Source: Paralichthys olivaceus (Eukaryota; Chordata; Actinopteri; Pleuronectiformes; Paralichthyidae). Taken from it: a stretch of 64,000 nucleotides of DNA. The notes beneath the pieces are model-generated. The model saw only the letters and a program-made list of their open reading frames with translations, did no database searches and had not been told where the DNA came from. This document shows positions 9,387 to 53,553 of this stretch, piece by piece. Numbering within the stretch: position 1 is the first letter of the stretch; the number at the start of each line of letters is the position of its first letter. The DNA lies in NCBI RefSeq assembly GCF_024713975.1, contig NC_091103.1:7629501-7693500 (forward strand). Reading direction: 5' to 3'. Both the position numbers and the translations under genes were made by a program.

Positions 9387-11062
9387 TCAGTCCTGAAATG
9401 ACAAAAAGGACAATGCTGTTACTGCAGAAAGGATACATGATTTATTAAAGATCTTTAGTGCCACAGCTCCTTCTCTATCTTTAATGTATGATCGTTCCCG
9501 CAGCAGCATGAGCTGTAACAACTACTGGGTTTTGTTCTTTTTTTTTGGAGGGGGTCGTGAAGTCTTGTCAGGCCATGACAGGTCTGAGAGCAGCGTGTTC
9601 TCTTCCATTTAAGCGATTGAACAGCAGCTCTTTTACGACTCTCCTATCTGAGGGAGTTGGCGCTGAAGTCTCCCCCTTCTCTTCTTCCCTTCCGTCACTT
9701 GCACGTAAAACAGGGACAGAGTCACTTTACGACAGAATGCGCCATAAATAGAAACACACACAGCGAGGGTGTGGTTTGCGTGAAAACAGGGACTGCTGGT
9801 CAGACCTGTTTGTGACGATGTTCCATTCAAATGAACACACTACCGACGATTAAGCTGTCAACCTTTGAAACAAGGCGTGACAGCTGCGTTACCTGTCGAG
9901 CTGCATTTTATTGAGCTACAACCAACAAAAGGGAAAATGCGGCAGCACCAAAACAACCAAAATCAACAAAACCATGTTGGGATGAATCAAAACTTTGAAC
10001 TCCAAGAGTGCAGCATATGACTCACGTCCTCGCTGCTGGAGGAGGATGAAGAGGAGGATGAGCTGCCACTTTTCTCTCCGTCCTTGGACTCCTTCTTGTG
10101 CTTCTTCTCGCCTTTGTCCTTGCTAGACTTATGGGACTTGCCAGATTTGTCCTTGCCAGATTTATCCTTGCTGTGACTCTTGTCCTTGCTGTGACTCTTG
10201 TCCTTGTCATGACTCTTGTCCTTGTCGTGACTCTTGTCCTTGCCGCTGCTCTAAAAATTAAAAAAAGGGCAAAAGTTGACCATGGGAAGATCATGAATTG
10301 AGTGCATTATCTCTTGAGGATTGTTTTGGGCCCAGTGATCGTAATTAATGAGAGAATAAAGAGCTGTTGGCCCAAATCCAGATTTAAAGGGGGGAAACTT
10401 TTTTGTAATCAGCCTAAAACACTCAATATGGTCAAAAAATGATATTAAGATAATCATTTTCACTTCAGTCGATGTCAACAATTATCACGATAAATATCAA
10501 ATTATTATTCCTTTAATGATTTTAACTCCTGAGTAAAGGTTGTGGGTGTAAACTATTTTTTTATGGACAGAGAAAGACAAACACCAAATCTGAAGTAGAA
10601 CAGTTCAGTGTTATAGCTCATCACTGTGTTTGCACAATGCATAAGGACGAAATCGACAAACTTTTACTGTGCAGCCATCGTTGACAGTCATATTTCAATA
10701 ATTATTGACAACTTGTGTTGATGTAGAAACAAAGCTCCTACCTTATCCTTGTCATCATCCTTTTTCCAGGGCCAACTAAACTCATCCTTCTGAGCCTCCT
10801 TTTGCTTCACCACCTCCTCGTCATCCTCCACAGCTGCAGAACAGAGAGCAGATTCAAGTTAGAATTAAAGTGTCACCAAGAGTAAAGTCAAGTAAAGCTG
10901 CACATTTAATATGCTTCGTCTCATTATGATGCAGATTTTGGGTTTGTTTATTCATTGAGCTGCTGCCAGGTGCAAACACTAAACTACCTGTTTCTTTTTT
11001 TTAAAAGAACAAATGAAAGTGGACTGAAGTGTGAACTCACCTGAGGACAGACTGAAAGACAT
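9387..11062 (-). CDS. small Lys/Ser/Asp-rich protein, 114 aa, four exons; function unknown
   Basis: Minus-strand exons are 11062-11041, 10833-10742, 10250-10026 and 9392-9387. Coding lengths are 22, 92, 225 and 6 bases, all introns are GT-AG and the frame is kept, ending in Asp-stop. Residues 1-8 (MSFSLSSA) come from a 22-base first exon. Residues 9-38 are acidic then mixed and contain KDEFSWPWKK, the only aromatic patch apart from F3. Residues 39-95 repeat GKDKSHDKDK-like units (K-D-K-S-H), and the end is a serine run followed by EDD. No signal peptide or membrane segment is visible. The composition suggests a disordered, phosphorylatable, probably nuclear protein, but this is inference. The larger neighbour at 12.5-22.1 kb begins with an exon of the same length and phase, so the two may be paralogues. 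I do not recognise the family. Confidence 0.6.
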
Positions 11063-12168: not shown

Positions 12169-12174
12169 TTTATT
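12169..12174 (-). terminator. poly(A) signal of the large Lys/Ser gene
   Basis: The minus strand reads AATAAA here, about 335 bases after the stop codon at 12507. No closer AATAAA was seen, so the 3' UTR is probably about 350 bases long. Confidence 0.5.
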
Positions 12175-12506: not shown

Positions 12507-12857
12507 TTACTGGTAGGGCCTGGGGCCTCTCAGCAGATCACTTGAGGTGAGATGGGTTGTTGAACGTGTCCCTGGCTCTCCGTACCTCCGTGGGCTCCCC
12601 ATCAGGGCCTCCATGGGACTGGGAGGTCTGCGAATGTGGGCCCTTTCTGGAATACTTACTGAAGTGCTAGAGACAGCTGAGGCCGGGGAGGGATCCAGTT
12701 TTAAGACAGGTTTGGAGGGGAGTGGTACAAACGAGACGGCTACTGGAGAGACACAGGGCTTGGAGCTGCTGCTGCCACTGGGGGCAGAACATTCACCGCT
12801 ACCTGAAGCCGACTCTTCCATTTTCGGTTCGGTGCTTTGCCCGCCTTCAGGACAGTC
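12507..12857 (-). CDS. terminal exon of the large Lys/Ser gene: unique C-terminal tail
   Basis: This exon follows the acceptor CATTACAG and encodes residues 791-906 with the stop. It begins DCPEGGQ and ends LLRGPRPYQ. It is rich in Ser and Pro, with valines and prolines in the middle (SFVPLPSKPVL) and an Arg/Pro patch (RRPPSP), and it has none of the polylysine of the upstream exons. As the only long non-repetitive part of the protein it is the best probe for homologues. An internal GTAAGT occurs at about 12657-12652 in the exon, so a shorter splice form cannot be excluded. Confidence 0.7.
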   Translation of the reverse strand, partial: DCPEGGQSTEPKMEESASGSGECSAPSGSSSSKPCVSPVAVSFVPLPSKPVLKLDPSPASAVSSTSVSIPERAHIRRPPSPMEALMGSPRRYGEPGTRSTTHLTSSDLLRGPRPYQ

Positions 12858-15800
12858 CTGTAATGACATCAACACCGTCACACATGAGAGAACCCGAGAA
12901 TGAATTAAAACTTGTTATCGCACATAATCATTTTCACAGAATCTTTATCATGAAAAACTTACAGTCTTCTTCTTCTTCTTATCAGTTTCACTTCCTGATG
13001 AACCCGAACTCTGCACACAGTGAGCAGGTTATACATTTCACCTTCGCTGGGAATATGATTTTATTATCTGATGATATTCTTATTTGAGTAATTTACCTCT
13101 TTCTTCTTCTTTTTCTTGTCCTTCTTGTCCTTTTTGTTTTCCTTATCGCTGTCACTGGAACTATCAGATGAACTAGATGAACCGGAGCTGGAGTCCTGCT
13201 CAGATTTAAAGGATGTCAATCATCTTTTTTAAGGACAAAGTGCGCAAACACTTATCACATAGTAAATTACCTTCTTCTTGTCCTTCTTCTTTTTCTTCTT
13301 CTTGCCTTTTTTTTTCTTCTTTTTCTTCTTGTCATCATCACTGCTAGAAGAATCTGAGTCCTTGGATATAATAACTGTGTTACTGTATTGCCTATTTTCA
13401 GAAGAAATGCTTTTTTATACGCACAGGAAACAACATTTTGCGAATACTACACATGCACATTGTTTTACCCTTTTCTTGTCTTTCTTTTTCTTCTTCTTCT
13501 TCTTGTCCTTTTTCTTCTTCTTCTTTTTCTTCTTATCGTCATCGCTAGAGCAGTCAGACGAAGAAGAAGAATCCTAGAAAGAGAAGTAAAATCATTTTTT
13601 CTAAATAATGTTTAATTTGAACCATAGAATTACACAGTGAGGTGTTATCATATTATAACTATAATACTCGCATTGAACATGCTATGAGTCTATCTATCCA
13701 TATATCTATTTATCTATCCATCCATCTCTCCATCCCTCCATCTCAAGGAGTTAATATCAATTGAAAATGATCACATTTCCTCAACTGAAAACCTGGGATT
13801 AAAAACAAAAGATGAGGTGTTCTCACCTTCTTTTTCTTCTTCTTGTCCTTCTTCTTCTTCTTATCTTTCTTTTTCTTCTTTTTCTAAAGTAAAACAAAAA
13901 GATGATGAATTGTGCAGCTGTGCCATCTCTTCACTGTGTGGAGTGTACTGTGTTGTAAATTGTGTGTCACCTCACCTTGTCATCATCACTATCAGAGAAA
14001 GAGGAGGATGAGGAGGAAGAGGAGCTTTCATCAGAAGAACTGGACTTCTACAAGTTTGTTCGTGGATAAATTTCAGTTACAGTAAGAGAACAGAGGTAAA
14101 TGAACCACACATTACAAGTGATCCAATATGTTTACCTTCTTCTTCTTTTTCTTCTTCTTCTTGTCATCTTCACTGTCAGAGGAAGAGCACGAATCCTGAG
14201 AAACAAAAGCAACAATAATGTTTTAATACAAGGAAAATACAAAACAACCAACCAAAACCAGCACAAGTACGAAAACTGTAAAACACAAAATTATTAAAAA
14301 CCTTATCCTTTTTCTTCTTCGTCTTCTTCTTCTTTTTTTTCTTCTTTTCATCATCGCTATCAGAGGAAGAGGAGGAGCTGGAATCCTGTAACACAAAAGC
14401 ACTGAAAATGATTTATCATCAACAATACACACAATATATAAAAAGCATAAGGACACAACATTTAATGTACACAACTGTTGTGAAGACACAAACCTTATCC
14501 TTCTTCTTCTTTGGCTTCTTCTTCTTCTTTTTCTTCTTCTTCTTTTCATCTTCGCTATCAGAGGAAGAGGAGGAAGAGCTGGAATCCTGTAAATCGAAGT
14601 AGCAGGGATAATTTTATATCAAGATAATACACAACTGCATCAGCCTAGAAAAGGCTCAACAAATAAAATGAAAACACTGAAGTGTTGTGGAGTGACAAAC
14701 CTTATCCTTCTTCTTCTTTGGCTGCTTCTTCTTCTTCTTTTTCTTCTTCTTTTTTTCATCTTCGCTATCAGAGGAAGAGGAGGAAGAGCTGGAATCCTGT
14801 TAATCGAAAGTAGCAGGGATAATTTTATATCAACATAATACACAACTGAATCAGCCTAGAAAAGGCACAACAAATAAAAGTAAATACACAAGTGTTGTGA
14901 AGAAACAAACCTTATCCTTCTTCTTTTTTGGCTTCTTCTTCTTCTTCTTCTTCTTCTTTTCATCTTCGCTATCAGAGGACGAAGAGGAAGAGCTGGAATC
15001 CTGTTAAATGAAAGCAACAAGAAGAATTTTATATCAATATAAAACACAACTGGATCAGCACAAAATAAGCACAACGACAAAAAAATGAAATAGAGATGTT
15101 GTGAAGACTGAAGACACAAACCTTATCCTTCTTCTTTTTTGTCTTCTTCTTCTTCTTCTTCTTCTTCTTCTTCTTCTTCTTCTTTTCATCCTCGCTATCA
15201 GACGAAGAGGAAGAGCTGGAATCCTGTAACACAAAATCATAGATAATCATTAAACATCATTACAATTCACAGCTGAAACCACACAGAGTACAACAAATGT
15301 AATACACGTGTCGTGACGAAACAAACCTTATCCTTCTTCTTCTTCACCTTCTTCTTTTTCTTCTTCTTTTTCTTCTTATCATCTTCACTGTCTGAAGAGG
15401 AGCTATCAGATGAAGAGGAGCTGGAGGAGTCCTGTGAATCATATTGAAACGACACATTCCCACTTCAAAATAGTTTTCCATTTGTGTCATGAGTCAAATA
15501 GTTTATATTATAATTTTAAAAGAAAGAAAAAGTCATAGTGTGATTTACATCCTTATGTATAGGAGACGATTTGGAGAAAAAAACACTATCAGTAGATATA
15601 TTCAGAGCTTCCATGGCTCTCTATACCTTTTCCTTCTTCTTCTTCTTCTTTTTCTTCTTCTTATCTTTTTCATCATCGTCACTGTCCGAACATGAACCAG
15701 ACTCCTGTACACACAAAAAATTATTATCTTTTTCATTTCATTTTTTATCATCACTGTAGATTCTGATCTTGATTATACTCTATCATAACAGCGTTATGTT

Positions 15801-18800
15801 GTAAATATTGCATTAGTACGCACTGGTGAAAACATACTATAGCAATTGCCAAGCCCATTAAAGGGCATTAAAGGAAGACTGATGCATTCTCTTTATTGCA
15901 GCATGCACATAGCACGATTACCTTCTCCTTCTTCTTCTTCAGCTTCTTCTTCTTCTTCTTCTCCTTCTCCTTGCCTCCCTCTCCCTCATCATCACTCAGG
16001 TTGCCTTGCTCATCTTGGAATGCCTCTATTCCTCCTGCTGGACAGGGAACATCATTACAACCCAAACAAAATCACATTCACTGATCCTGACTTTGTGTTT
16101 GATTTGTGTTTAATTTGTGTAGAAGCACACGTACCAGCCGATGCAGAGGACAGCTTGTCTTTGTCTGCTGCTTTAAGCTCTTTGGCTTTGGCCTGTCACG
16201 ACAAAAGAGGACAATAACTTCTTATGTGTTCGTGCACAGGAGTATGTGCAGCATGCAAACAGTTCGTATGAGTATTTCACCTTCTCAGCATCTCCATCAG
16301 TATTTGGTCCTGCAGTCTCATTTTCTGCAGAAAAGGGCAAAACAACACTGATGCATCAACACAACAAACAGTGACGATTGTTGCTGTGATTTCCAAGGAT
16401 TGGAAATAAAGTAAACACTCACCAGCTGCTGAAAGAGCGACAACACTGCTGAGCTCATTCTGCTCTTCATCCTGTGAATCCACACAGATACAATCAAGCT
16501 TAAGCTGATGATATATACTGTAACTTGTTTCTCCCTACACGTCTACACACACACACGTGCATATACGAGTCATACAAACACATCAACACCTTTGTTGACA
16601 AATAATGACAAATCAGTGTTCAGACCGACTTGTGTCTGCAGTAGTGAAGAATTTGAATAAATATGAGGCGAGGTGTCAAGACAGTGTGGAAGAAATATGT
16701 AAAATAACATGCCGTTCTCCTGCAGGCCCTGACAAGCACACAAGCTTTTTTTCTCAGGAGGTGTGTGCAGAGTTGAGGAGTCAGAGTTGCTCGCTGCTAC
16801 AAAGTGAAGACTTCAAAGTCAACACGTCATGCTCGCAGGAATGAAGAGTTTAACCCGGATCCTGCATAATAAAACCTGAGCGAATGAAAACCTGCTACGT
16901 TTAAAGGCTTTAGTCTTTTTTAAATACAAGTTTTTTAAACCTTTTTCTTATCCGTCTTCTTCTTCTTCTTTTTCTTATCTCCATCACTGTCAGATGAAGA
17001 GGATGAGGAAGAACATGAGGAGCTGGAGCCCTGTGTAAATAAATCAAGTATAAACTATATGTGACTTACAGTGTAATGATGAACATGATGCCGAAATGAC
17101 AAATCAGACATGTTCATTTACCTTTTTCTTATCTTTCTTCTTCTTCTTCTTCTTGTCCTTCTTTTTCTTCTTGTCGTCTTCGCTGTCAGAAGATGATGAT
17201 GAAGAGGAGGAGCTATCTGAGGAAGAGGAGCTAGAGTCCTGTAAAACGAAGGAGAAGAAATGAAACAATGAATTTATTATTATTAATATGATTCGTTTTT
17301 ATTCAGCCACAGGAACAGAAAATTGATATATTGGTTTAGTCATGTTTATATTTACCCTCTTCTTTTTCTTTTTCTTCTTCTTCTTTTCGTCCTCACTGTC
17401 AGATGATGAACTGTCAGATGAAGAGGAGGATGATGATTCCTAGGACGGAGGAAGCACAGCAGAGACATGAAGTAATATAAAGGTTAAGTGTCAAGTAAAA
17501 TGATTCATTATTGTTGTATAATCTGTTGGACATGAGACAAATTTAGTATACCTTCTTTTTCTTCTTCTTCTTCTTCTTCTTGTCCTTCTTCTTCTTGTCT
17601 TTCTTTTTCTTGTCCTTCTTCTTCTTCTTCTTTTTGTCTTTCTTGTCGTCCTGGTCATCTGATGAGTCCAAATCCTTAAGAAACAAACAAATAAAACCGT
17701 TAATAACAAGTGTAACATCATCAGCATGCTCAAAATGGAGAATGGCTTGTTTTCTCTCTCACCATGATCTTCTTCAGACCGTCTCCAGACACCTGCTCCA
17801 TCTGGTCATCAGGACCTGAAAATATTTAAATGGTTAAAATGAAAAGCTTTTCTTTAATAAATGAAAAGCATGTCTTCATACATTGTTAGTTGAGTTAAAG
17901 TGACTGAAAGAAAATCTGAATGTGTAAGTTTGAATAAGTTCATGAGCTGCTGTGAACACAGAACTTGAAAGACGTCTATGAACCGTACAGGAGATAATGT
18001 CACCACATACTTGCACTAGTTAATAAGACAATTCAATTACTGGAGCATCTGGACTAACTGGAAGTATCAGAAGCCCCTTAGAAAAAAATACAACCTATAT
18101 GCTCAAGCTGCTCCGCAAGCTTACCTCCACTGTAAGAAGAAAGTGTACATGCAGTATATAACCTTTGCATCGCTCTGACTCCACTTTAACAGGCTTTATT
18201 TAGTAATGTTTGCATGTTTATGAGCCTAATGAGAAAAAATATTAAGTTAAAAAACAGCAGACGAGATAAAAAAAAAAATTATCCACTTGTTATTTATAAA
18301 TAACCTTAGAAAGGATTTTATGTTGTAACACAGGAATACTTGCAAGTGGTATTTCTTTGGGCGGGACGACTATATGTATTACATACTTTTGAAATTGCAG
18401 TTTTAAACTGTGTACACTGATTACACAGCAGTATTATGTATCCAATATGCATAAAACATTCCATCACTCAGATTGTTGTGAGTTAGCCTCTGTTTGTGAG
18501 ATTTGTTTAAAGCTATAGTGTAACATGCAGTCTTATTTTTATTGTTTAATTTGTGTAGGGACCCCACATATGTTCAGCTACATGGAATTTGTTTTTTGGC
18601 TCGTTTAGTCCGAATAAACAGAGATTGCCTTCGAACACATTCATGGTCCGGCCTTTTCATTAAATGAATCACAGCACAAACATTACTTGACACCATCGGT
18701 TACAACCGCAAATAAGAAAATTCTCTTACCACACTGAGATATGACAACATTGTCCCAGATATACTCATCCTTCTTCTTCTTCTTGTCCTTTTTCTTCTTC

Positions 18801-21800
18801 TTCTTCTTGTCATCCTGTAAGGGAAAGTCAGTCTATTAATGTTATTCATATTCATTTTGTTTTGTCTTTTGTAAATATATTCATGTGCATAAAAATCATT
18901 TTCAAAATGAGTGTTATATTTATTTTATACAGTGTAAATAAAGAAAAGGGACCGGATCAGGGTTGGGTGTTTCCTACTAGATATAGATAAGGAGTTTTTT
19001 TCACTATGGTCAGATAACAAACACACACACACCTGCTATGATGGTGCAGCCAAAACCAACACATGAGACATGATATCTGCTGACTTTACATATGACACAT
19101 ACAATATTACAAACTAGATACACGATAATACAGCACATTTACTGTGTACTTATACTTTCAACATGCACTCACACCCACATGGTTAGGATTTCTAGGGTGT
19201 TCCCAATCAAAATAACTCTGCACAGGTCACACATGGGTTCGTCATTGCTGTGACATTCTTTGGTTGATACAGAGGGTGTTTCTAACTTCATCTCTGGGTG
19301 TGTCGCTCTCCTTTCAGATACTGCCTGCTATCAGATCCAGGGCATTTGAGCGTACACCTCAAGTGCCTAGAGTGAAATTCATTCTAGTGAGTACTGTTCA
19401 GCCCTAAGCGAACAAATGGGGTGGTAACTAAGTTTTTAGAATAATTTCATCTTAAAGTTTATCTTAACCTTTGCTTCTCTCTTTTGTGTTGAAAACTTGT
19501 CGCCCGCTTTTCTTGACTCTCCTGATTTTCCACCCACACCCTCAGAAAACACTCCACACATCATGCCATCGTGTGACTCCAGTCACATGAAGCAGAAATG
19601 TTACGAAACCACGTGAAAAAAAAGGTGAAATACTTTTTTTCCTTGCGACATATTTCCTTGCGGATGATTCATGCTCTTATCACATCTTTCAGAACAACAC
19701 ATCTTTTTTATTTATTTATACATACAGTCAGATTTAAAACCATTCTGTCCTAAATATTCTCATATTGTCAACTCTGAAAAACTCCAAATATCCTCACCTA
19801 AGGCGGTGACATAGTTAGATTGACAATCAGTCTCCTGTAAGCTGATGTGAAAGTGTTTATGCTTGTGGCACATGACTTAATTTAGCTGTGCTGCAGGAAA
19901 GAAAGAGCTCTAAATCTCAGGGATTAACAAAAACAACAAACCGCACTGTGGAACCATCAGATCTGAAAGACTGAAACTGAAAGACTCCCAAGAGCGGAGC
20001 GTGGAGCGACAACACCTCTCAAAATGATGGACGTAAACAGCAAGTCTCAGGCAATTGAAAGAATTGTGATGACTGCAACTACTGTGTGACATGTTGTTGC
20101 AAGACAGGAGCTGTGAGGAGGCAAGATTCCTCTGCAGCACACAGCCGTGGGATTCCTTGATCAGCATCTATGTCATAAGCACAACTTACCTCACTGTCAC
20201 TTTCTGAGGAGCTGCTGGAAGAAGAGGAAGAGGAGGAAGATGAGGAGGAGGAGGAGGACGATGAAGAAGATGAGGAGGAGCTGGAACCCTGTGCAGAAAG
20301 AAAGAAAGAAAGAGAAACTATTGCTCAACCTGCTGTACATAGGTTTAATACACACCTTAGTTGGTGAAAGTGCTAAATGAGAATCTAAATGAATGAGTCA
20401 CTAGAGAAACACACACTAGAGTGAGGCTTTGTCAGTGACACTTAGGGAGGGGCTCTTCAAACACTTAGCAACACACAAAGGAAACTACACAAGCAGCCAT
20501 TTTACAAAAAACACACACATTCCCACTTTGCTGTAAACCAAAATAATGCTGCAAAAGTGACGGTTGACATGAACTATTAACCAATTCGTTCCTTTTGTTA
20601 TTCTCTGCTGTTCGACCGGCTGTTGCTAGGCACCGCCCACATTGCACTTCCTCCTCTGTCAGATGTCAGGATTATGCAAACTCCTGATTTCTGCAGCCTC
20701 ACCTGAGCAGATTCCACTCTCCCTCCAGCAGCCACAAGATCTCCTGACTGTTGTCAAGTGACGGGATTTCCTCTCATCACTTGACACTTGTCAAGAACTG
20801 ACTTGGTGATAGAACATTTCATTGTGAATATTACTTGGTTAGCGGTGAAGATAAGTTTCTTGAGACACATACTTTCTTCTTCTTCTTCTTTAGCTTCTTC
20901 TTCTTCGTTGGTTTCTTGCCAAGACCCTCGTCCTCGCTGTCAGAGGACAGTGAGCTGTCAAATGAGTACAGATCCTGGGTCGAACAAAAAGAGAGGGAGC
21001 AGACGTTATTTCATGCGACCTAGACGTGATGCACATAATTATATTTGTAGCAGCCTCTGCATTGCTACACCGGTTAAAGCATGAAGACGTTTTACAGTTT
21101 ATTGTGGTTGGTTTTTTTAAAGAGGTTTTTCCAGGGGATTTCCACTGACTGGTAAAGTGGACTAACCAACACATCTGATGCACATTAAAATTCAAGGTGT
21201 ATAACTTCATGCAATATCATGCAGCTGCAGCAAAGGAAGGGAAAGATTGAGCAAGGCCTAAACTAAGATTCTTAACAGCATAGGTGTGGCCCTTCCTGAA
21301 ATGAGGGGGGGAGGAGGATTGGTATCATGAAGTTATAACTAACGGATCCCAGAATATTTGACAGTAGAATACAATGGATCGCTGCAGTTTAATGATTGCT
21401 CCTGCTCACCTGTCCATCTCTAGCTCCTGACAGGTGTCCGGGCTGAATGTTCTCTTCCAGACTTGCAGGCTCTGCCTCCTCAGTGAGCGGTGGCAAACCA
21501 CTGGGCAGGGGGACAGCTGCCGGGTGCTCGACACCTGCAGCGCCTGCTCCACCTGGAGCTGCACAGCACAGCAGGGTGACAGGAACAGACACCAGTTACT
21601 CAGAGTCACAATAATGAGCTGCCAGTGTCTACAAACTGCATCAGCTGTTGTAGCAACCAAGGTTTCTATGCTGGTTGTGTGAAAACAACTAAAGGATTAT
21701 TATGTGACTGCACTTCCCTGTTGCTTCACTTCCTTAAACAGACAAGTTCAATCATATCAAATATAAAACAAGTATAAGCTGCCAAATCGTTGAAGTGATT

Positions 21801-22102
21801 TCTGCAGATTAATGACTTTCTGCTGACCTTTGCCATAAACCACACAAACTATTACAACAATTGAGAAGTGCCACACCCCTTAACACTACAGGGAATGGAG
21901 ACAGTGTCTTTGCTATTTGCTATGTTATGTGTGGGACTACATCAAGTTTAAAACGGTATTGACAGCACTTTCAGTAGTGATTGTCATGTGCTGATTAAAG
22001 ATAAACAATGTAATGGAACACACAGTGATCCAGCTCAAACTAAGTCAACTTCAAAACAGAACAACTTTAAGAGAACACACCTTTGTGGAGAGTGGACTCC
22101 AT
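12507..22102 (-). CDS. large block-repeat protein of acidic-serine and polylysine modules, 906 aa, 29 exons; function unknown
   Basis: I assembled 29 minus-strand exons with GT-AG introns whose coding lengths sum to 2721 bases, in frame from the ATG at 22102 to the TAA at 12509-12507. Residues 1-57 are Ala/Pro/Glu-rich. Residues 58-790 alternate Ser/Asp/Glu clusters (SDSEDE-like, good casein kinase 2 sites) with runs of lysine broken by Asp or Glu. Residues 791-906 form a Pro/Ser-rich tail without polylysine. There is no signal peptide, membrane segment or folded domain I can recognise. Nopp140 and Treacle have the same general plan of acidic-serine and basic blocks, and Treacle also uses one exon per repeat, so a nucleolar or condensate role is a reasonable guess but unproven. 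The exons are strongly purine-rich on the coding strand. The 5' end is the least certain part; additional upstream exons are possible. Confidence 0.75.
12963..15704 (-). CDS. core repeat exons 15-28 of the large Lys/Ser gene
   Basis: Exons on the minus strand: 15704-15627, 15431-15327, 15223-15122, 15000-14911, 14796-14701, 14586-14494, 14385-14302, 14195-14136, 14047-13976, 13883-13827, 13573-13469, 13360-13271, 13195-13097 and 13010-12963. Every one is a multiple of three and lies between phase-0 introns. Most start with GAC or GAT after the acceptor (Asp), run through a serine cluster ending in DSEDE or DSDDD, and finish with 8 to 20 lysines and usually DK. Exons 23 (14047-13976) and 24 (13883-13827) look like one module split into its acidic-serine half and its lysine half. 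Many donors are AAG followed by GTTTG rather than GTAAG. Confidence 0.75.
14302..15327 (-). repeat. tandem duplication of an exon-plus-intron unit of about 205 bases
   Basis: Six successive exon ends lie at 15327, 15122, 14911, 14701, 14494 and 14302, spaced 205, 211, 210, 207 and 192 bases. Each is preceded on the plus strand by CAAACCTTATCC or a close variant. The introns between them are also alike: phrases such as ATAATTTTATATCAA, CACAACTG and TCAGCCTAGAAAAGG recur at the same offset in at least two units. Exons and introns were therefore copied together, by unequal exchange or replication slippage, recently enough for non-coding sequence to remain similar. Confidence 0.8.
15922..17815 (-). 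CDS. middle exons 6-14 of the large Lys/Ser gene, with a non-repetitive linker
   Basis: Exons on the minus strand: 17815-17763, 17674-17552, 17439-17356, 17238-17122, 17030-16941, 16471-16423, 16324-16281, 16192-16135 and 16037-15922. The first, fifth-to-last and neighbouring junctions keep phase exactly (phase 1 entering 17815, 16324 and 16037, otherwise phase 0). Exons at 16471-16135 encode a linker (DEEQNELSSVVALSAA, then acidic and Ala/Lys-rich) with little polylysine. The exon at 16037 begins with a Gly/Ile/Phe-containing acidic stretch before polylysine resumes. The donor at 16940 is GTTTAA, weaker than usual. Confidence 0.7.
18730..22102 (-). CDS. N-terminal exons 1-5 of the large Lys/Ser gene
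   Basis: Exons on the minus strand: 22102-22081 (ATG, 22 coding bases), 21558-21410, 20974-20873, 20288-20190 and 18814-18730. The frame is fixed by the downstream repeats: only the reading APGGAGAAG in the second exon joins to DLYSFDSS in the third. Exon 4 is almost pure serine (more than 20 in a row) ending ESDSE. Exon 5 has polylysine and then DEYIWDNVV, a rare hydrophobic and aromatic patch. The ATG at 22102 has T at -3 and G at +4, an average context. Sequence upstream of it in the same frame is open back to the acceptor at about 22167, so a more distal start joined to this exon cannot be ruled out. Confidence 0.6.
19000..20180. other. intron 4 of the large Lys/Ser gene, no internal feature
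   Basis: This 1.4-kb intron (18815-20189) is the longest in the gene. It contains a short CA run at about 19020-19031 and otherwise AT-rich sequence. I see no additional coding exon or recognisable transposon. The adjacent intron between 17816 and 18729 is likewise featureless to me. Confidence 0.4.
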
Positions 22103-23903
22103 CCAGGTCCGGGTCTTTCTGTCCAGGGGCCCAGGTCTCCTCTGACAGACCCACCTGAGCAACTCTGAGACAAGGTGTTGAGCTGGACTTTTTTATGGGT
22201 GGGGACAACGGGAAAGTGTCAAGGAGGCCAAAATCAGACACTTCCCTTCACACATTTCAAAATAAATTCCATTTTGAAAGACAATACCTAACATTACAAC
22301 AATTGCACCTGCTATAAACTCACTGTGCCTGATCTAGCTGTGAATGAGGAATGGTTTTTTTGTAATGTGAGAGGCAGCAGCTGACACAGTGTTTGTTTTT
22401 CTTTCAGACTGGGCCATACAGTGTTTTATTTTGAAAGCAGTAGTGTCTCATTACTGTGACTGTTTCTGACTGGTGGAGCCTCTGCAGCCAGAATGGCTGG
22501 TTTACCTGTGTCAACAGGTACTGCCAGTTTCACTGGGTGGGAGCTACAGTGTCTGCAGGAGTGGAAGGTAACGTTGTAAAGTTGTGTCATGTTCAAACAC
22601 TGACTCAATGCAGAAATGGGTTAAACAGTTTCATACCAGGATCAAATTATGATCCATGATACACAACAATAAACACATAATGAACGTGTGTCCTGCCAGC
22701 TCAGGAGCAAAACCGAGGAGTGTTTCTTCTTTGGGTCTCTAGTTAAAATGAGTGCAGTTTATATACTGACATAGAATATAGTCAATACAACACCATCCAA
22801 CATTTAAATAAAGTGCGCTGTTATTGCATATCACAACTACTTACCACTACTTCCTCTGCACATTATTGTATAACACACACACACACACACATCTTTCTAT
22901 AGTTGCACTACATAAAATATACTGCCACTTGCTATTTAGTATACTATGATGAACTTATATTGTTTTTGTATACCACACCTGCATATATACTTATCTCCTT
23001 GTACTAATGCACAAAAACTGTTTATCCTGTACCACCGTGCTTTACTGAAGTACATTTCTATGCAAACAATATGTCCAGAGTGAAAAGGTGTATATTATGT
23101 ACAGGACTTTTATTGAATTGTCTTTATTCTACTGCCTTTTCCTTCTCTTGTCTACCTCACGGTGTAGGATCAATACACTTTAATCTTATTTTATTTTATT
23201 TAATCTCATGAACCCTGATTTAAATCATGCAATGCTGCTGTGTCGCCCCCCAGAGGACGTACAGAGGATTGACCACAGGGTCACGTCTCACTTGTCAAAC
23301 GGGTTATTCAGGTTCCCTTCCAGCTTCCGTAGTTCCATAGTTCCATAAAGATAACAATGTTAAGATCGGTCAACTCCGGAAATGGTCATTTAATTCAAAA
23401 ATAAAAGTAAGTATATACTACTATTAAAGTGAAAAAACAACTAATAACGAAGGCTATATTGCAAATTTCAACAAAAAAACAGAAACATAAAATGAAAAAT
23501 ACAATATATTTATAATGAAGTTGATATAAAAGTCATATTATAAAACCTCCACGGAAAAGGAAATGCTTGTTCAACAATGTAGTGGGTTGACATGTTGTGA
23601 TGTAGTTATGGCTGAACACAACTTTCTCACCTTCATCTACGTGAGTCTTCGTCACCAGCTCTGATCCCTGTGCGATGTAGCCTGACCAGCTAACGTTAGC
23701 TTAGCTTAAAGAGGACCGCTCGTGTGTTGGCTTCATCTTTTATTTTGTTTTTAACCTTTTTTCACCGCGGCTCGCTGCTGCTGCGTTCACGGGACTTTAC
23801 CAAACTAATGTCCGCAGCCCTGCAGCTGGAGGACCAGAGGACCAGAGCCATGACTAATGTTGTGGGTCCGTTCACACTCGAATGACCGACTGGTCGTGTC
23901 GCC
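22103..23903. promoter_or_regulatory. 5' region shared by the large Lys/Ser gene (minus) and tp53i13 (plus)
   Basis: The two genes point away from each other, with start codons 1.8 kb apart. On the minus strand an acceptor-like CTTGTCTCAG ends at about 22167, just before the exon with the Lys/Ser start. A good donor (GATGAAG then GTGAGA) lies at about 23632-23625, so a non-coding first exon near 23632-23720 is plausible. Another acceptor/donor pair brackets about 22507-22553. Positions 22800-23200 are AT-rich and look like a decayed retroelement tail. The first 150 bases before tp53i13 are GC-rich. No TATA box is evident. Confidence 0.4.
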
Positions 23904-24143: not shown

Positions 24144-27100
24144 GCTCTCATTGGACAGGGACATGCCTGCAGCCTCTCTCCATTGGGACTGTCCAGTGTC
24201 CACCTGGACGAAGTCTATTCAGGTAACCATGGACACAATACACTTCATCTTCTGCATGTTCCACACAGATGGAGGGGGGGGGGGGGGGTGCTGTAACAGG
24301 CTGGGTGGCAGGAAGTTAAAACAATAAGGGAAACGTGGCCCTGCCAGGAGCATGAGTACTGTTCTCTGATCAGCTCACAGACAGACAGGGGGATACAGGT
24401 TGTCCATGTTGCTCTGTCAGTGGTTGACCCTGCGTTCTCTCTCTCTGCCTTATCTACAGAGACGTCCCAGTATTGACACAGTGTATGATCCTGAGGTGAG
24501 CAAACACTTTACAGAGCATCGTGTATCTTTATTGAGTTTTCCCTCAACCTTTGACAGTCCACACTCCCAGGGCTGTTTCCTAAAATCTGGGTTACAGTCA
24601 GTCACTCACCCAAACTAGGAGAGCACTCAGTCGGGGGACACAACAGTCCCCTTCTAAACCAAATTTAAGATCACTATATCCAGATGTTTTATTTGTATCG
24701 GCACCAAATTGCGCACACTCACATATCTGAAAACACATTCGATTTTTTTCCAGCCCTGACCCAAACCACGTCCTTCCACCAAGTTTCTTGGTAACCTGTC
24801 CAGTAAATCTTTAACTAACAAATGCAGATGAAATTAAAGTTTACAATTTTGATGCAAATGCATGACATGAACAGAAGAATCACCCTGTGGAGGCTGTTTG
24901 ACGAGTGGTGAGTAGAGTTGATAAAGTCTAACTGGACCTCATGTCTCTTCCCTGCAGCCAGCCAGGCTGATGTGTATGAACAAGCCCATCTCCTACACTC
25001 ACACCATTCCAAACAGGTGAGCAGATGTTTTGTCTAATGGCTTCAACTGAGGTGGAAAGTCTTTCAGTGGATTGCCACATCCAAGTGTAAGATCTCCAGT
25101 CCTGTACACACAGCTGACCACATTTATAAATACACTTATTGTTGTTGTCCTTATATGGTGCTTTGCAATTCCACAAGTTAGCAGCAGATGTAACTTTGTC
25201 ACATATAAAAGTTTCATGGAATCTAAGTTGTGTCTATTGTGTGTCTTTGTGCTTGTGTGCAGTGGAGCGTACAGACCAGTCAGGGCAGAGAGTGGAGAGT
25301 ACCTGTACTGTCCTCCTCACAGGTGGCTCAACAACTTGCATGTAAGTTTAAACATCAAACATCTTTTGGATCTGTATCTGTCTCCACTCTCATTGAAATT
25401 AAAACCCTCCATTTATTTTGAACCTTTTGTTGAGATGACGTCATCATGGATCATCCCAGTTTAAACTTGATAAGAACCTTTTATAAAAGGCACAATAAAT
25501 AGTTTCTAGTCCTACAAACAAATCCAGAGGTCTCATGCTGTGCGCTTGTGTTTCTGTTGTGTATTTTCCAGCATGGAGCTGCTGTTCTGCTCTACCACCC
25601 CTGTGCTCCCCTCCACGTGCGTCACTTTCTTTCCGTCCTGGCCAGCTCTTGTTTGTCAGAATACATCATTACACCACATCCACGCCTCAATCAACACATG
25701 GTAAGAAACACTTAAGCTGCTTTCCGACATGCTCTGAACTCAGGGGATCCTCCAGACCTTCTTCAGAGGGGCTGTGTTTGTGACCACTAATCTGACCCCC
25801 CCTAGTATAGACTCCCACAGCAGGAGATTCAGATACAGAAACCTTGTTTTTTAGATTATTTGTCCACCGTGACTAAATCCAGGGGATGAGTTTTCACTGC
25901 TGCCTCTGTGTTCAGCCGATAGCTTTGGTGTCCTGGGGTCGCACTTTGGAGCTGGCTGCTGTGACCTCTTCAGACGTCTGCGATTGGCTGGAGACCCTGA
26001 CAACCACAAGAAATGACTTGAGCAGTGTGACCCACATCAGAAAATATGACCTGCTGCTAGCCTGGCCGGCAAAGCTGCAGCAGCTGCATTATACACATCC
26101 AGAGGAACGTTCAACAAAAATGAAGGTTTGTAGTCTTTACTAATGATTGTGAGGATTTTTATTCACACGTTGTCAACTATAAGTCATTTTACATGCACTA
26201 CAATAAAAGAAGCGTTAAAGAGTCATTCAGCAGTCTGTGAACTGTCTCTAAGTAGCTCTTATTTTAAATCCCCAGGACTCTGTGAGACAGTGCTGTGAGA
26301 AGACCATCTCTTCTCTGCTAAATGAAGCAGTGGAGGCAGAGCTGGAATCCAGCAGGAGGAACGAAAGCTTGACAAAAATGGAAAAGGAAGGGAAAGGCAG
26401 AAAAATAAGAGCTGCCATCAGAGAAACACAGCCGGCCAGTGAGACGGGAGACGTCCAGAACAACAACACCACACTAGTAGCATCTGAGGATTCTCCTCCA
26501 GGGAACAGAACTGTCTCAGATCCTCCTGGTCCAAGTGAAGCTCTTCCTCAATCTAACATCCAAAATCTGAATCAGAGCCTTACAGCCGGGCAGATGACTC
26601 CTTCGGGGTCAAATATGTCTGAGGTTACAAGTGATTCTTTAGAATTAAAGACTTCTGATTCTCAGAAAACGATACAGACAGAAACACTGCAGCTCACATC
26701 TAAACACACTGAAGCCACAAACACAAAACCCTCTCAAACAGAGATTCTTTCAGATGTTGTGAATAGTGAAGACAAGCTCACTGCGAGGCCTGAGGCACTG
26801 GACCTCAGTCCCAGAGATGAAGGTGAAGACTCTGCTGAACACAGCGGGAAAGAGAATGACTCTAAAGAGAAAAATTATATCGCAGCAGACGGGAAGTTGA
26901 GGGACAATGAAGTAGTGGAAGTAAAAGAAAGGGAACTGGAGCATAAGCAAACACACAACACTCCACACTCTCACCACAAAAGTGAAAACAACGGCTTAGA
27001 TTCTGTTTCCAAATCCGATCCACCCCAATCCAAGCAGGCAGCCGTTAACCTGCCGAACAGCCACGACTGTGACAGCTGCAAGGCGGGCGAACACTGCGAC

Positions 27101-27778
27101 TGCACTAAGGCCTCGGCAGCTGACTTCCAAGCCACCATCATGAGCAAGGGGTTGCCGAGGACCCCTAGGACGGACGAGGCCGTGTGGGCCGCAGCAGCAC
27201 TGGGCTTCCTGTTGGTTCTCCTGACGCTGTCCGTGCTTCACAGTCGCCTGTACCGCCACTGGAGGACCACGCCTAGTCTGTACTGGCATGATCCCCGGCA
27301 GGACTATGACAGCGTGGCGGGTGAGTGGACCACACGGGAGTCAAACACAAGAGAACTGATCTTCCTGTGAACAGGTTAATCAGTTTCTCCTCAGCCTTTA
27401 CACTAAATATGTCTGAATTCATCAAGATTCACACATTTCCCCTGTTCAGCAAAGTGATAAAACATTCCTGGATCTGCACCAAAAATTCTTCCTTGGCCCA
27501 TGTCCATTAAGTTTTGTGTTCTGCTGTTTGTGTTTTTTGTGTTATCTTGCTTACAAATGAACAACAAACACACAAACAAAGAAATGAGGTGAAAACATAA
27601 CCTCCCTGCCTGAGGTCAGAATGTACCTACATGTATATTTCTTAACACTGTAATCTCTGTGTGTCTTCTAGACGTGATCCAAAGGAGGTTGAGGATTGCT
27701 AAGAGGAGGCGGAAAAGGGGCAGAAGAAAGGAGTGCGTTCTCCTGCCGAGCTCCTCCAGCTCAGATGAACTTGCGTAG
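23904..27778 (+). CDS. tp53i13: Tumor protein p53-inducible protein 13, type I membrane protein, 593 aa
   Basis: Eight plus-strand exons keep frame: 23904-24020, 24460-24495, 24958-25016, 25263-25341, 25572-25700, 25916-26125, 26276-27320 and 27672-27778. Residues 1-25 form a signal peptide (LTVTVLAALWVSVG). The ectodomain has the family core VLLYHPCAPLHV and PIALVSWGRTLELA, matching LYHPCAHPW and LVLTAWGLALEMA of the human protein. Exon 7 encodes a long Ser/Thr/Asn/Glu-rich linker, then a Cys cluster (CDSCKAGEHCDC). The segment PRTDEAVWAAAALGF opens the transmembrane helix at about 509-535, almost identical to the human one. The tail is Arg/Lys-rich and ends SSSSSDELA. In mammals the gene is induced by p53 and slows growth; its position next to git1 is conserved. 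It is longer than the human protein (393 residues), mainly in the linker. Confidence 0.88.
24091..24141. repeat. (TG)n microsatellite in tp53i13 intron 1
   Basis: About 25 uninterrupted TG units, 70 bases after the donor of exon 1. It is followed by a G homopolymer at 24274-24288. Confidence 0.9.
24159..24168 (+). promoter_or_regulatory. perfect p53 half-site in tp53i13 intron 1
   Basis: GGACATGCCT fits the p53 decamer RRRCWWGYYY with the preferred CATG core. It lies about 140 bases into intron 1 of the p53-inducible gene. No second perfect decamer is adjacent, so it is a half-site and only suggestive. Confidence 0.3.
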
Positions 27779-31500: not shown

Positions 31501-34065
31501 GAAGGACGACGCCTTCGTTTCAGGAAGGTGAATTTCTAAATGCGCAGAATCCTTCGGAGCCAAGAGGCAAGATTATGCAGAAGACGTTAACCTTAGTTGC
31601 AGGTATAACCACATTTGCTCGGCACAGAACAACTGTGCTTGAACCTACAATAGGTTAAGTGCGTTATCTCTGAAAAGCAAACAAAAAAAAACAACTACTT
31701 TGTTCCCAATGCTGTCTCCCATGAGAGACGGTGAGCTAGAAGTTACAACTTCTAAGGCCCACGTCAGCAGGCCGTGACACAGAACCAAGCGTACGACAGT
31801 GGCTGAGGGCTTGATTGTGCTCGCCACGGTGAAAATAACACATGGCAAAGTAAATCAAGCGCACTCTGAGGTTTCAGAAATTGATTCAAATGAGCATATT
31901 TTTCATTTTCAGCTCCAGTTGACTAGATCTGGTTCTTTCCACAGATCGACTTAAAGCTTCAAGGTAGGGCTGGTAATTTTTCTCTGAAAGACCTTTTATC
32001 TTTATTTGTTTAAATCCACTTCACGCCCCGAAAGCCATCAATAAATAGTTGTTTGAAAAATAGAAAAAGAAAAATCTGCGGCCCTCGTAAAAGAGAAATT
32101 TAATTTGGACCGAAATAAAATGGGCGTACCTGTCCATTACTTTAGCAGCGGAGACATGCACCGCTGAAGCAGAGGCGATAGCTAGAAGTTAGCGACCCAG
32201 TCACGGAAAAGTTGTCTTCCAGCAGTTGTCAGACAGTGTGCGTTCATGTGTTTTGGGGGTGTAGCTTTGATGAGAGGTCCGATGGGAGGGGGTGAAATGG
32301 ATCACTTTCAAAGTGTAGTCTGCTTCTAACTTTTCCAGTATTACCAACCCAAGCTTTAACTGCAACATACCAGTATCGCCAACATGCATGCTAACAAACG
32401 TTTCACTCAACGTTTGTTAGCATGGATTTAAATAATGGATGCTATTCAAAACAAGCACCGAGAAAGCACCCCGGCCTTCTCAGTAGCCAACGGCCCTAAA
32501 ACCAAGAATGGGGGATTCATCCTCGTAAACAGGCTGGACCAAATGGTGCGCTTGATTTTTATCATCCTGCTTGACACAAAAAAAGTGAGTATGAGATTCT
32601 GAGATGATTCCACTAGTTCTATTAGAAGAGGCAAATAAAAGAGGAAACATGAAAAGAGTATTTTGATCCAGATATGCACATAATGCACCAAGGGGTTTTC
32701 AATCTGACAGAGAATCAAAAACAAATCTCCCAAAACTCCAACTCCCCTTTTCGACCACTCGGCCACAGGACAAATTACAACATGAAGAAAAAAACCTCAA
32801 CTGTCACCCACAAAAAAAGAGTCAGAGAGAAATGTTGAGGACCATTTCACAGGTTTTCTTCTGTTTTCTTTACGTGTGCATGTTCATTTAAATCCCAGTA
32901 AGAGGTTGAGCACATTTCTCCTCACCTGTCTCCCCATTCCAATAAATGAGAATCATATTGAGACAATGAAATAAAACATACAGAAACTGTTAAATCAAGA
33001 CAGTGAGTAAAAATATCAATACAAAAAAACAATTGGCATGATAAACAATAACAATAAATCACAATTATTCCAGTGTAAGTGTTTTGTTTTTGTAAGTCAG
33101 TAAGGTTTGTCCTCAGAGGTGCAGACCAAACCAATCTGCAAAAAAAATCAAACAAAGAAAAAGAGGAAAGAAATTCAAACATGCCATATCACGATGTGTA
33201 CCACCGACAATGTGGAGAGATGGGGGTGACAAATCGGAGGAAAGCAGGAACCCCCTGTAAAAGTTAACCCTGGATAAAGTATTTGGGGTGTGGAGCAGGG
33301 TGACGTTAGATGGATGCCAGGGGGTCCGTCTCTGCAGCGGGAGCTCATCCTGTATGGGACGGGACAGGGGACAAGAGGGGCCTTGTGATTTCATTGGCGA
33401 GAGAGAGAGGGGCAAAGGAGCAGGCGGGAGAGGAAAGCAGAGGAGGAACGTCCTGACTCCTCACAGGACAACGGGACGGCAGTGGTTTAAGGTACGTCAC
33501 AGGCTGCAGTGGTTGATCTGACGACCTCCCTCTCTCGCACCATTCACTCCCACTCCCTCTTAACCATGATCAGGGAGGGAGGGATGACGAGGGACAGGTG
33601 AGAATAAATAAAGCGGTTAACAGCTCAGGATCCAGTTCACTGTACATCGCCACCTCTGTATTTCACATATGCTCATCACAGTTAAACAGTTTATTATACA
33701 AATCTGATTCCAATTGTTGCTCCACACTCTAGTTCCCATGTTAGTTCCTCCCGCTCGTCCTCCCCCACTCTCACTTCCACACTTGTGGAATTTCTCCTTT
33801 TTCAGTCCTCGTGTTATATCTCAACCTTGAGCGCTTCCATCCGATTCCTTTCCCATGCATTTTCCAAACTTCTCTCTTCTTTTCCATTCCTCGTCGTGCC
33901 CATCACTCTCTCGGTCACTCCCCGTCCTCCCATCTTTAGTGTGATCACATTATCCGTCTTCATCAATATCCTAGAAGCCCCTCTGTTCCCTCTCAGCCCA
34001 CCCATGCATTGATCTGTTCTTTCTTCCTCTTCCCTCTCAATCTATCCATCCATGCATTTGTTGGG
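28600..34065. other. gap between the converging 3' ends of tp53i13 and git1
   Basis: No coding exon is supported. The right part is presumably git1 3' UTR on the minus strand. Candidate minus-strand AATAAA signals lie at 33695-33690, near 32003 and at 30209-30204, the last followed by an A-rich stretch typical of a transcript end. I cannot tell which is used; the distal one would imply a 3' UTR of almost 4 kb. Repeat relics lie at 29740-30080. Confidence 0.4.
29740..30080 (+). repeat. two fish dispersed repeats, one nested in the other
   Basis: Positions 29745-29830 (CATCCTGGGAGAGGG, then CTGAGGTTTG) and 30012-30075 (TATGAGGCAAATTGTGA, then TTTGTG) look like the two halves of one retroelement 3' tail familiar from fish genomes. 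Between them, 29832-30010 carries a different element: it starts near TATATAACAC and ends with AAGGGACACTTCAGCA and ATCGAACTGACGACC, a phrase also present at 8306-8395. I identify these from remembered consensus wording, not from a search. Confidence 0.45.
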
Positions 34066-53206
<19,141 letters not shown>

Positions 53207-53553
53207 CTCGGAAAGTGGAAGAAACCGAGAGGTGGATGTCGGCGATGATGTGGCTGCTCGCCCTCTTCCCCCCGAGCTGCCGACCGACGTCTGCCGTCAA
53301 CCGATGCGGCCCCTGAATCCCCGGAAGCCGGGTGGTGTGATCGGTTTTCCCGGGCCAGCTGACAGCTGGATTTCCCGTTTGTTCCTGCGGTATCTTCGCC
53401 CACGTTCACCACTGAGCTGCAAGTCTGCAGCGAAGTTCAGTGGACATGGTTCATCTGGCTGCTGGAGTGAACCACCATGTCTGAATATTTACTAAAAACT
53501 GTTCACCGCATTGCCCGCAACTCACCGAGAGACGGCAGCTTTCTACCTGTCAG

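Follow-up and report, generated by a model that had tools for sequence, protein, structure and literature searches.

Exon-Intron Structure of the Gene

The 64,000-nucleotide (nt) stretch of the Paralichthys olivaceus genome analyzed here (the window, C11:7629501-7693500; host genome 588 Mb, 25 contigs) carries on its minus strand, from 22102 to 12507, the coding part of a gene for a predicted 905-residue protein dominated by repeated modules of serine, acidic residues and lysine. The rebuilt model comprises 29 exons, all 28 introns being GT-AG, and the joined exons (2718 nt) form one frame of 906 codons counting the stop, with no internal stop. A dynamic programme over splice sites and frame supplied the draft, which manual pruning reduced to a core model. 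The relaxed programme had given 36 exons, seven weak ones of which (20747-20703, 20548-20527, 20384-20356, 19834-19798, 19320-19175, 16793-16630, and 12519-12507) were removed, while exon 10 was lengthened from 16988 to 16941 and exon 29 continued to the stop. The first-pass annotation of this DNA had described 28 GT-AG junctions keeping a single frame of 906 codons, and the rebuilt model bears this out, with agreement at both ends. Its statement that each module sits on its own exon holds for the larger part of the gene. By reading, 18 of the 29 exons carry a whole serine/acidic-plus-lysine module, whereas four are split halves (exons 4+5 and 23+24) and seven (1, 2, 6, 11, 12, 13, and 29) lie outside the modules; with a strict regular expression, 15 module exons are recovered. 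Module exons encode 16-41 residues, in which a serine run closes with SDSEDE or a similar motif and a lysine run comes after it.

Exon 1 (22081-22102; this and all following exons on the minus strand) encodes MESTLHK, with a stop codon in frame ahead of the ATG and a putative TATA-like element 5' of the exon (22185-22199, minus strand), and exon 2 (21410-21558) encodes a unique N-terminal part. The first module lies on exon 3 (20873-20974), followed by a split one in which exon 4 (20190-20288) encodes 27 serines running into ESDSE and exon 5 (18730-18814) lysine runs and then the unique DEYIWDNVVISQC. After the unique exon 6 (17763-17815) come a lysine-rich module with two serines (exon 7, 17552-17674) and the modules of exons 8 (17356-17439), 9 (17122-17238), and 10 (16941-17030), the last with a very weak donor. 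Exons 11 (16423-16471), 12 (16281-16324), and 13 (16135-16192) are again unique, exon 14 (15922-16034) is a module of acidic residues and lysine that has a single serine, and exon 15 (15627-15704) is a further module. A young tandem array begins with exon 16 (15327-15431) and continues through exons 17 (15122-15223, with the 14-lysine run), 18 (14911-15000), 19 (14701-14796), 20 (14494-14586), 21 (14302-14385), and 22 (14136-14195), all of them modules. The second split module has its serine half on exon 23 (13976-14047) and its lysine half on exon 24 (13827-13883). Three more modules (exon 25, 13469-13573; exon 26, 13271-13360; exon 27, 13097-13195) and a short one (exon 28, 12963-13010) lead to exon 29 (12507-12857), which encodes a unique tail of 116 residues plus the stop. 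An AATAAA (12169-12174, minus strand) is found about 330 nt past the stop.

Introns 4 and 5 measure 1375 and 914 nt, respectively, most others being near 100 nt. Together with the seven additional weak exons of the relaxed programme and some weak donors and acceptors, this would suit a model that fuses two adjacent genes or contains wrong exons, the true protein then being shorter. Such an error is rather improbable, as the 28 junctions all hold one stop-free frame and all 20 phase-0 exons pass the shuffle test described below, a test which, however, cannot prove one shared transcript.

Evidence for a Real and Intact Gene

Tracts of at least six AAR codons occur 23 times in the 64 kb, each of them inside a model exon and in frame, while the plus strand has none. 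As the model exons were picked partly for lysine and serine content, the splice sites were also tested without regard to frame. The acceptor used by the model was the best one within at most 45 nt in 18 of the 22 module exons and the donor likewise in 18/22, leaving four acceptors and four donors that were not. In addition, 300 dinucleotide shuffles of the introns were made with loose thresholds letting the weak donors of the model pass. An in-frame acceptor and donor were observed for 20/20 phase-0 exons, where shuffled introns gave 4.29 on average and never more than 11/20, and the summed splice score was 117 versus -189 (standard deviation 29). To judge from the sequence, this is very probably a real and intact gene. 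The AAG codon runs resemble trinucleotide repeats, and the locus might accordingly be read as AAG/CTT microsatellites with chance splice signals, or as a dead gene. That no working gene exists is, however, hardly credible, given that just 3 of the 23 lysine tracts consist purely of repeats, all 23 being in frame, that 905 codons run without an internal stop, that differences among the exon copies are mostly synonymous and that the splice sites outscore their shuffles.

Exon Duplication

Codon usage within the serine runs points to common descent of the modules. At the 19 places matching an expression for the last serine preceding an acidic cluster, this final serine is encoded by AGY in 17 cases (exceptions at residues 175 and 637), compared to 24/151 other run serines (p = 2e-10), and the second serine by AGY in 10/19 versus 14/132 (p = 6e-5); both p-values are optimistic, the exon copies being related and not independent. 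Since AGY cannot be obtained from TCN through slippage, the AGY core marks common descent. In the tandem array of exons 16-22, identity is 82-99% between exon pairs and 40-88% between the introns that follow them (21 pairs each), and the proportion of nonsynonymous differences is below that of synonymous ones in 21/21 pairs, although the alignment favors synonymous pairing. A length that is a multiple of three is found for 20 of the 27 internal exons and for 10 of the 28 introns. As these 20 exons begin and finish in phase 0, each could be added or skipped with the frame intact. Taken together, the modules evidently derive from one ancestor by exon duplication, with TCN and AAG run lengths varying among them. 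Searching the own genome for further modules (2596 candidates, 150 of them scored) gave five matches, and a search for islands (eight candidates) gave three, all of them within the gene itself.

Lysine Codons and Putative Splicing Enhancers

Lysine is encoded by AAG in 242 of 295 cases (82%), more so within runs (213/251) than outside (29/44; p = 0.005). Controls disagree on the usual level, with 47/75 in the repeat open reading frame (ORF) of NOLC1, 10/22 in a membrane ORF and 11/13 in three GIT1 exon pieces, and we are unsure whether the bias is special. Because of it, nevertheless, the lysine runs read as one GAAGAA after another, and this hexamer is known as an exonic splicing enhancer with a higher frequency in exons whose splice sites are weak (PMC10760453). 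GAAGAA/AAGAAG hexamers occur 286 times in the exons and once in the introns, and the gene has 106 of them per kb. When lysine codons were simulated at 50/50, the coding sequence held a mean of 106 hexamers (maximum 152) compared to the actual 288, and the longest A run was about 20 instead of 9. Moreover, donors are weaker in exons with at least four hexamers (upper medians 1.2 versus 6.8 bits, n = 20 versus 8, p = 0.0005), and hexamer count correlates negatively with donor strength (Spearman -0.62, 28 exons). Both trends persist when exons 16-20 are collapsed to one (donor medians 2.05 versus 6.05, n = 16 versus 8, p = 0.0005; Spearman -0.55, p = 0.005). What is new here is this apparent use of lysine runs as GAAGAA splicing enhancers, along with weaker donors in the lysine-rich exons. 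A second possible reason for AAG use is the lower output from iterated AAA, which cuts protein output more than AAG (PMC4363877).

Protein Composition and Probable Role

Lysine (295), serine (222), aspartate (112), and glutamate (57) together make up 76% of the 905 residues, lysine alone 33%. This composition places the protein within the definition of a PASK (polyacidic serine and lysine) region, a domain proposed as polyphosphate target (PMC7008358); the covalent nature of the polyphosphate link is disputed, and PMC12077175 calls it non-covalent. The longest runs are of 14 lysines and 27 serines, there are 37 lysine runs of four or more, and charge segregation is stronger than in any of 300 shuffles for each of three block sizes. 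Primary CK2-type sites (S/T-x-x-D/E) are predicted at 67 places, from which hierarchical priming would extend to 183 of the 238 serines and threonines, with the computed net charge changing from +137 in the unphosphorylated protein to -229 with every CK2-reachable site filled. In NOLC1 and TCOF1, pyrophosphorylated serines are described in acidic regions and as primed by acidophilic kinases, especially CK2 (PMC11427299), and the acidic serine runs encoded here would by analogy be of the same kind. For the tail, a mean predicted local distance difference test score of 59.5 was obtained with AlphaFold2 without an alignment, which is weak evidence for disorder.

From these features, the gene product is pictured as a largely disordered 905-residue phosphoprotein of repeated PASK-type modules. 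CK2-type kinases would phosphorylate the serine runs starting at the acidic end, so that in each module a block of high negative charge would adjoin a positive one, and RNA, DNA, acidic tracts or polyphosphate might be ligands of the lysine blocks. Arranged in series, the modules would confer valency, and the protein may thereby join, or contribute to scaffolding, a condensate of the nucleus and most likely of the nucleolus, with module number possibly tuned through exon skipping. Lysine blocks promote nucleolar entry, and their combination with acidic disordered regions is a described nucleolar grammar (PMC10936679); in RPA43, the copy number of lysine-rich regions decides nucleolar entry (PMC9470157). 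Nucleolar disordered proteins of the lysine-block kind combine such blocks with E-rich regions; the gene product has lysine blocks and segregated charge, its acid being mostly D. A charge-block protein of the nucleus, probably with a role in a nucleolar condensate, is the best reading, and we hold it with middling confidence.

Several points weigh against it. Nucleolar regions are reported to exceed those of speckles in E, not in D (PMC9470157), and D is the prevailing acid in this protein. With four lysines in 116 residues, the tail does not provide the lysine-rich end of Treacle. A TATA-like promoter would fit expression limited to certain tissues. Nor need the AAG bias be special: it exceeds two of the three controls and not the third (GIT1, which is small), and plain slippage of AAG repeats would produce it as well. 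Finally, all splice scores derive from weight matrices not trained on this species.

Restricted expression, as suggested by such a promoter, would also suit a real gene whose protein acts elsewhere than in the nucleus. It could be a lysine-rich protein of the cytoskeletal, sperm or muscle type, its charge blocks binding a polyanion or a partner there, with cylicin and triadin as parallels. Moreover, the nucleolar features considered here are those of composition, and a weak Pfam match to SPMIP11 (sperm microtubule inner protein 11; expectation value (E) 0.012, 16.5 bits) points in the same direction. This match, however, stays below the cut-off of 25.9 bits, covers a low-complexity stretch and was rejected, and by-eye reading of the 905 residues (no predictor used) revealed neither a signal peptide nor a membrane span. 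With the nucleolar entry promoted by lysine blocks (PMC10936679) also speaking against it, a role outside the nucleus appears unlikely, albeit it is an alternative to be taken seriously.

Neighboring Loci

Directly downstream, at 10026-11062 on the minus strand, lies a small gene for which three coding exons were found, encoding 113 residues to the last donor-like site or 125 with read-through. Its product is lysine/serine-rich, with KDKSH repeats and a serine run followed by ED, and its first coding exon is 22 nt long with a phase 1 end, the same as in the large gene, of which it is possibly a tandem relative. Both of its own-genome matches are its own exons, and no Pfam match was obtained.

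A GIT1-like gene with the Pfam domains ArfGap, GIT_CC and GIT1_C occupies about 34000-53300 on the minus strand. GIT coiled-coil regions were found at three places in the genome (C11, C4, and C18), and an ohnolog of the charge-block gene beside the other two GIT loci was rejected, as the 40 kb 3' of each (eight stretches) contained neither a lysine nor an SDSED module; a run of six serines occurs in a single ORF of these flanks. Adjoining GIT1, and divergent from the charge-block gene, an ORF at 26252-27370 on the plus strand ends in a membrane-like segment; from mammalian synteny, we assume that it may be TP53I13. At about 4685 on the minus strand, an ATG with a signal-peptide-like stretch (MVKFHNSDLWIAWMVIFCMEGK) is perhaps the first exon of another gene.

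Comparison With Known Charge-Block Proteins

No earlier description of the gene stood among the papers listed from an open-licence library. The first-pass annotation had proposed to search the tail (residues 791-906) for relatives. At the profile level, no Pfam family matched the tail up to an E of 1, the best PDB match had an E of 1, no relative was confirmed in viral contigs or prokaryote genomes (neither a likely place for fish genes), and in its own genome the tail has a single occurrence. Neither the 905-residue protein nor the tail matched a Pfam family at its cut-off. Below it, UBA_HOIP (E 0.042) and SR-25 (ARL6IP4, PF10500; 30.9 bits where the cut-off is 40, strongest over 69-139) were considered and dismissed; SR-25 resembles the gene product in having serine runs next to lysines. 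Against the PDB, residues 1-422 of 905 gave five matches at E up to 1, judged to be low-complexity, the best being the lysine-rich end of Nop56 (0.011) and snRNA-activating protein complex subunit 4 (0.013 and 0.014). By the tests that worked, the protein would not be a member of a named family. The suggestion that no described family has such blocks holds with a qualification, as the composition already has a name (PASK) and the grammar has been described.

That the gene is a diverged Treacle or Nopp140 homolog of this fish could be argued from the alternation of acidic serine and basic blocks common to both proteins, from modules on successive exons as in Treacle, and from the fact that no other Treacle was found in the genome. 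The Pfam Treacle model (PF03546) matched neither the protein nor the own genome, and no searched genome gave a positive control. For Nopp140, the outcome is clearer. Up to an E of 1, its domain SRP40_C was found neither in the 905 residues nor in the tail; it is present on C14, where the model detects NOLC1, so that this test works in the genome. Three NOLC1 pieces gave no BLASTP match with the gene at E up to 1, BLASTP being insensitive on low-complexity pieces, and linkers and lysine codons differ between the two. The N-terminus of Nopp140/NOLC1 bears a LisH motif. Pfam did not find LisH in the gene, but at E up to 0.01 it misses the N-terminal exon of the own-genome NOLC1 as well. Homology with either protein is very doubtful.

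NOLC1 itself (C14, 10057424-10059376) shares with the gene the alternation of acidic serine clusters with basic linkers, some 5' clusters lying on separate exon-like ORFs like the modules here. The 582 residues of its large repeat ORF (A 23%, P 15%, K 13%) include 13 clusters, and the acidic serine clusters there have been amplified as similar repeats; considered together with the exon copies of the charge-block gene, module growth has proceeded by both routes in one genome. In this ORF, there is no lysine run of four, AAG accounts for 47/75 lysine codons, and enhancer hexamers number about 10 per kb. The NOLC1 linkers consist of A/P/K/T, as opposed to nearly pure lysine in the gene, where K/P/A-rich linkers were not found.

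Treacle is a nucleolar protein that binds UBF and RNA polymerase I. It has 11 repeat motifs on exons 6A-16 (PMC7957619) and forms condensates (PMC11996177). It resembles the gene product in the alternation of acidic serine clusters with basic stretches, in CK2 sites and in repeats on successive exons. As described in these two sources, however, its clusters are S/E-rich, its linkers contain alanine, lysine, proline and glutamate, and its C-terminus carries a lysine-rich nucleolar signal, whereas the gene combines nearly pure lysine linkers with D as main acid. On a far-reaching view, the gene would be an independently evolved Treacle counterpart in a Treacle-less fish, that is, a nucleolar scaffold with one module per exon, in which lysine codons serve as both charge and enhancer and exon duplication and skipping set module number and condensate behavior. 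We regard this as a long shot, and the absence of Treacle on which it depends is a supposition, the Treacle search having had no working control. The origin of nucleolar scaffolds is a question that the gene touches, and zebrafish, normally without a fibrillar center, form a similar compartment when given TCOF1 (PMC10936679). If the view were true, a purer charge grammar attained via exon duplication would show scaffold origin happening separately, and the double use of AAG for charge and enhancer would explain the retention of short exons with weak donors. The near-identical modules would also offer a natural series for studying how block number sets condensation.

Of the remaining comparisons, the PASK proteins (yeast Nsr1 and Top1; PMC7008358) likewise combine serine, acidic residues and lysine, but the gene differs by its roughly twenty modules with a fixed serine-acid-lysine order. 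RPA43 also possesses several lysine-rich regions (PMC9470157), three in number as against 37 lysine runs of four or more in the gene. The initial view of a charge-block protein in the manner of Treacle and Nopp140 thus stands with respect to style and to a mostly modular exon arrangement, while identity with Nopp140 is rejected by the tests that worked. The protein resembles those organizing the nucleolus in style, and shared ancestry with them is not part of the claim.

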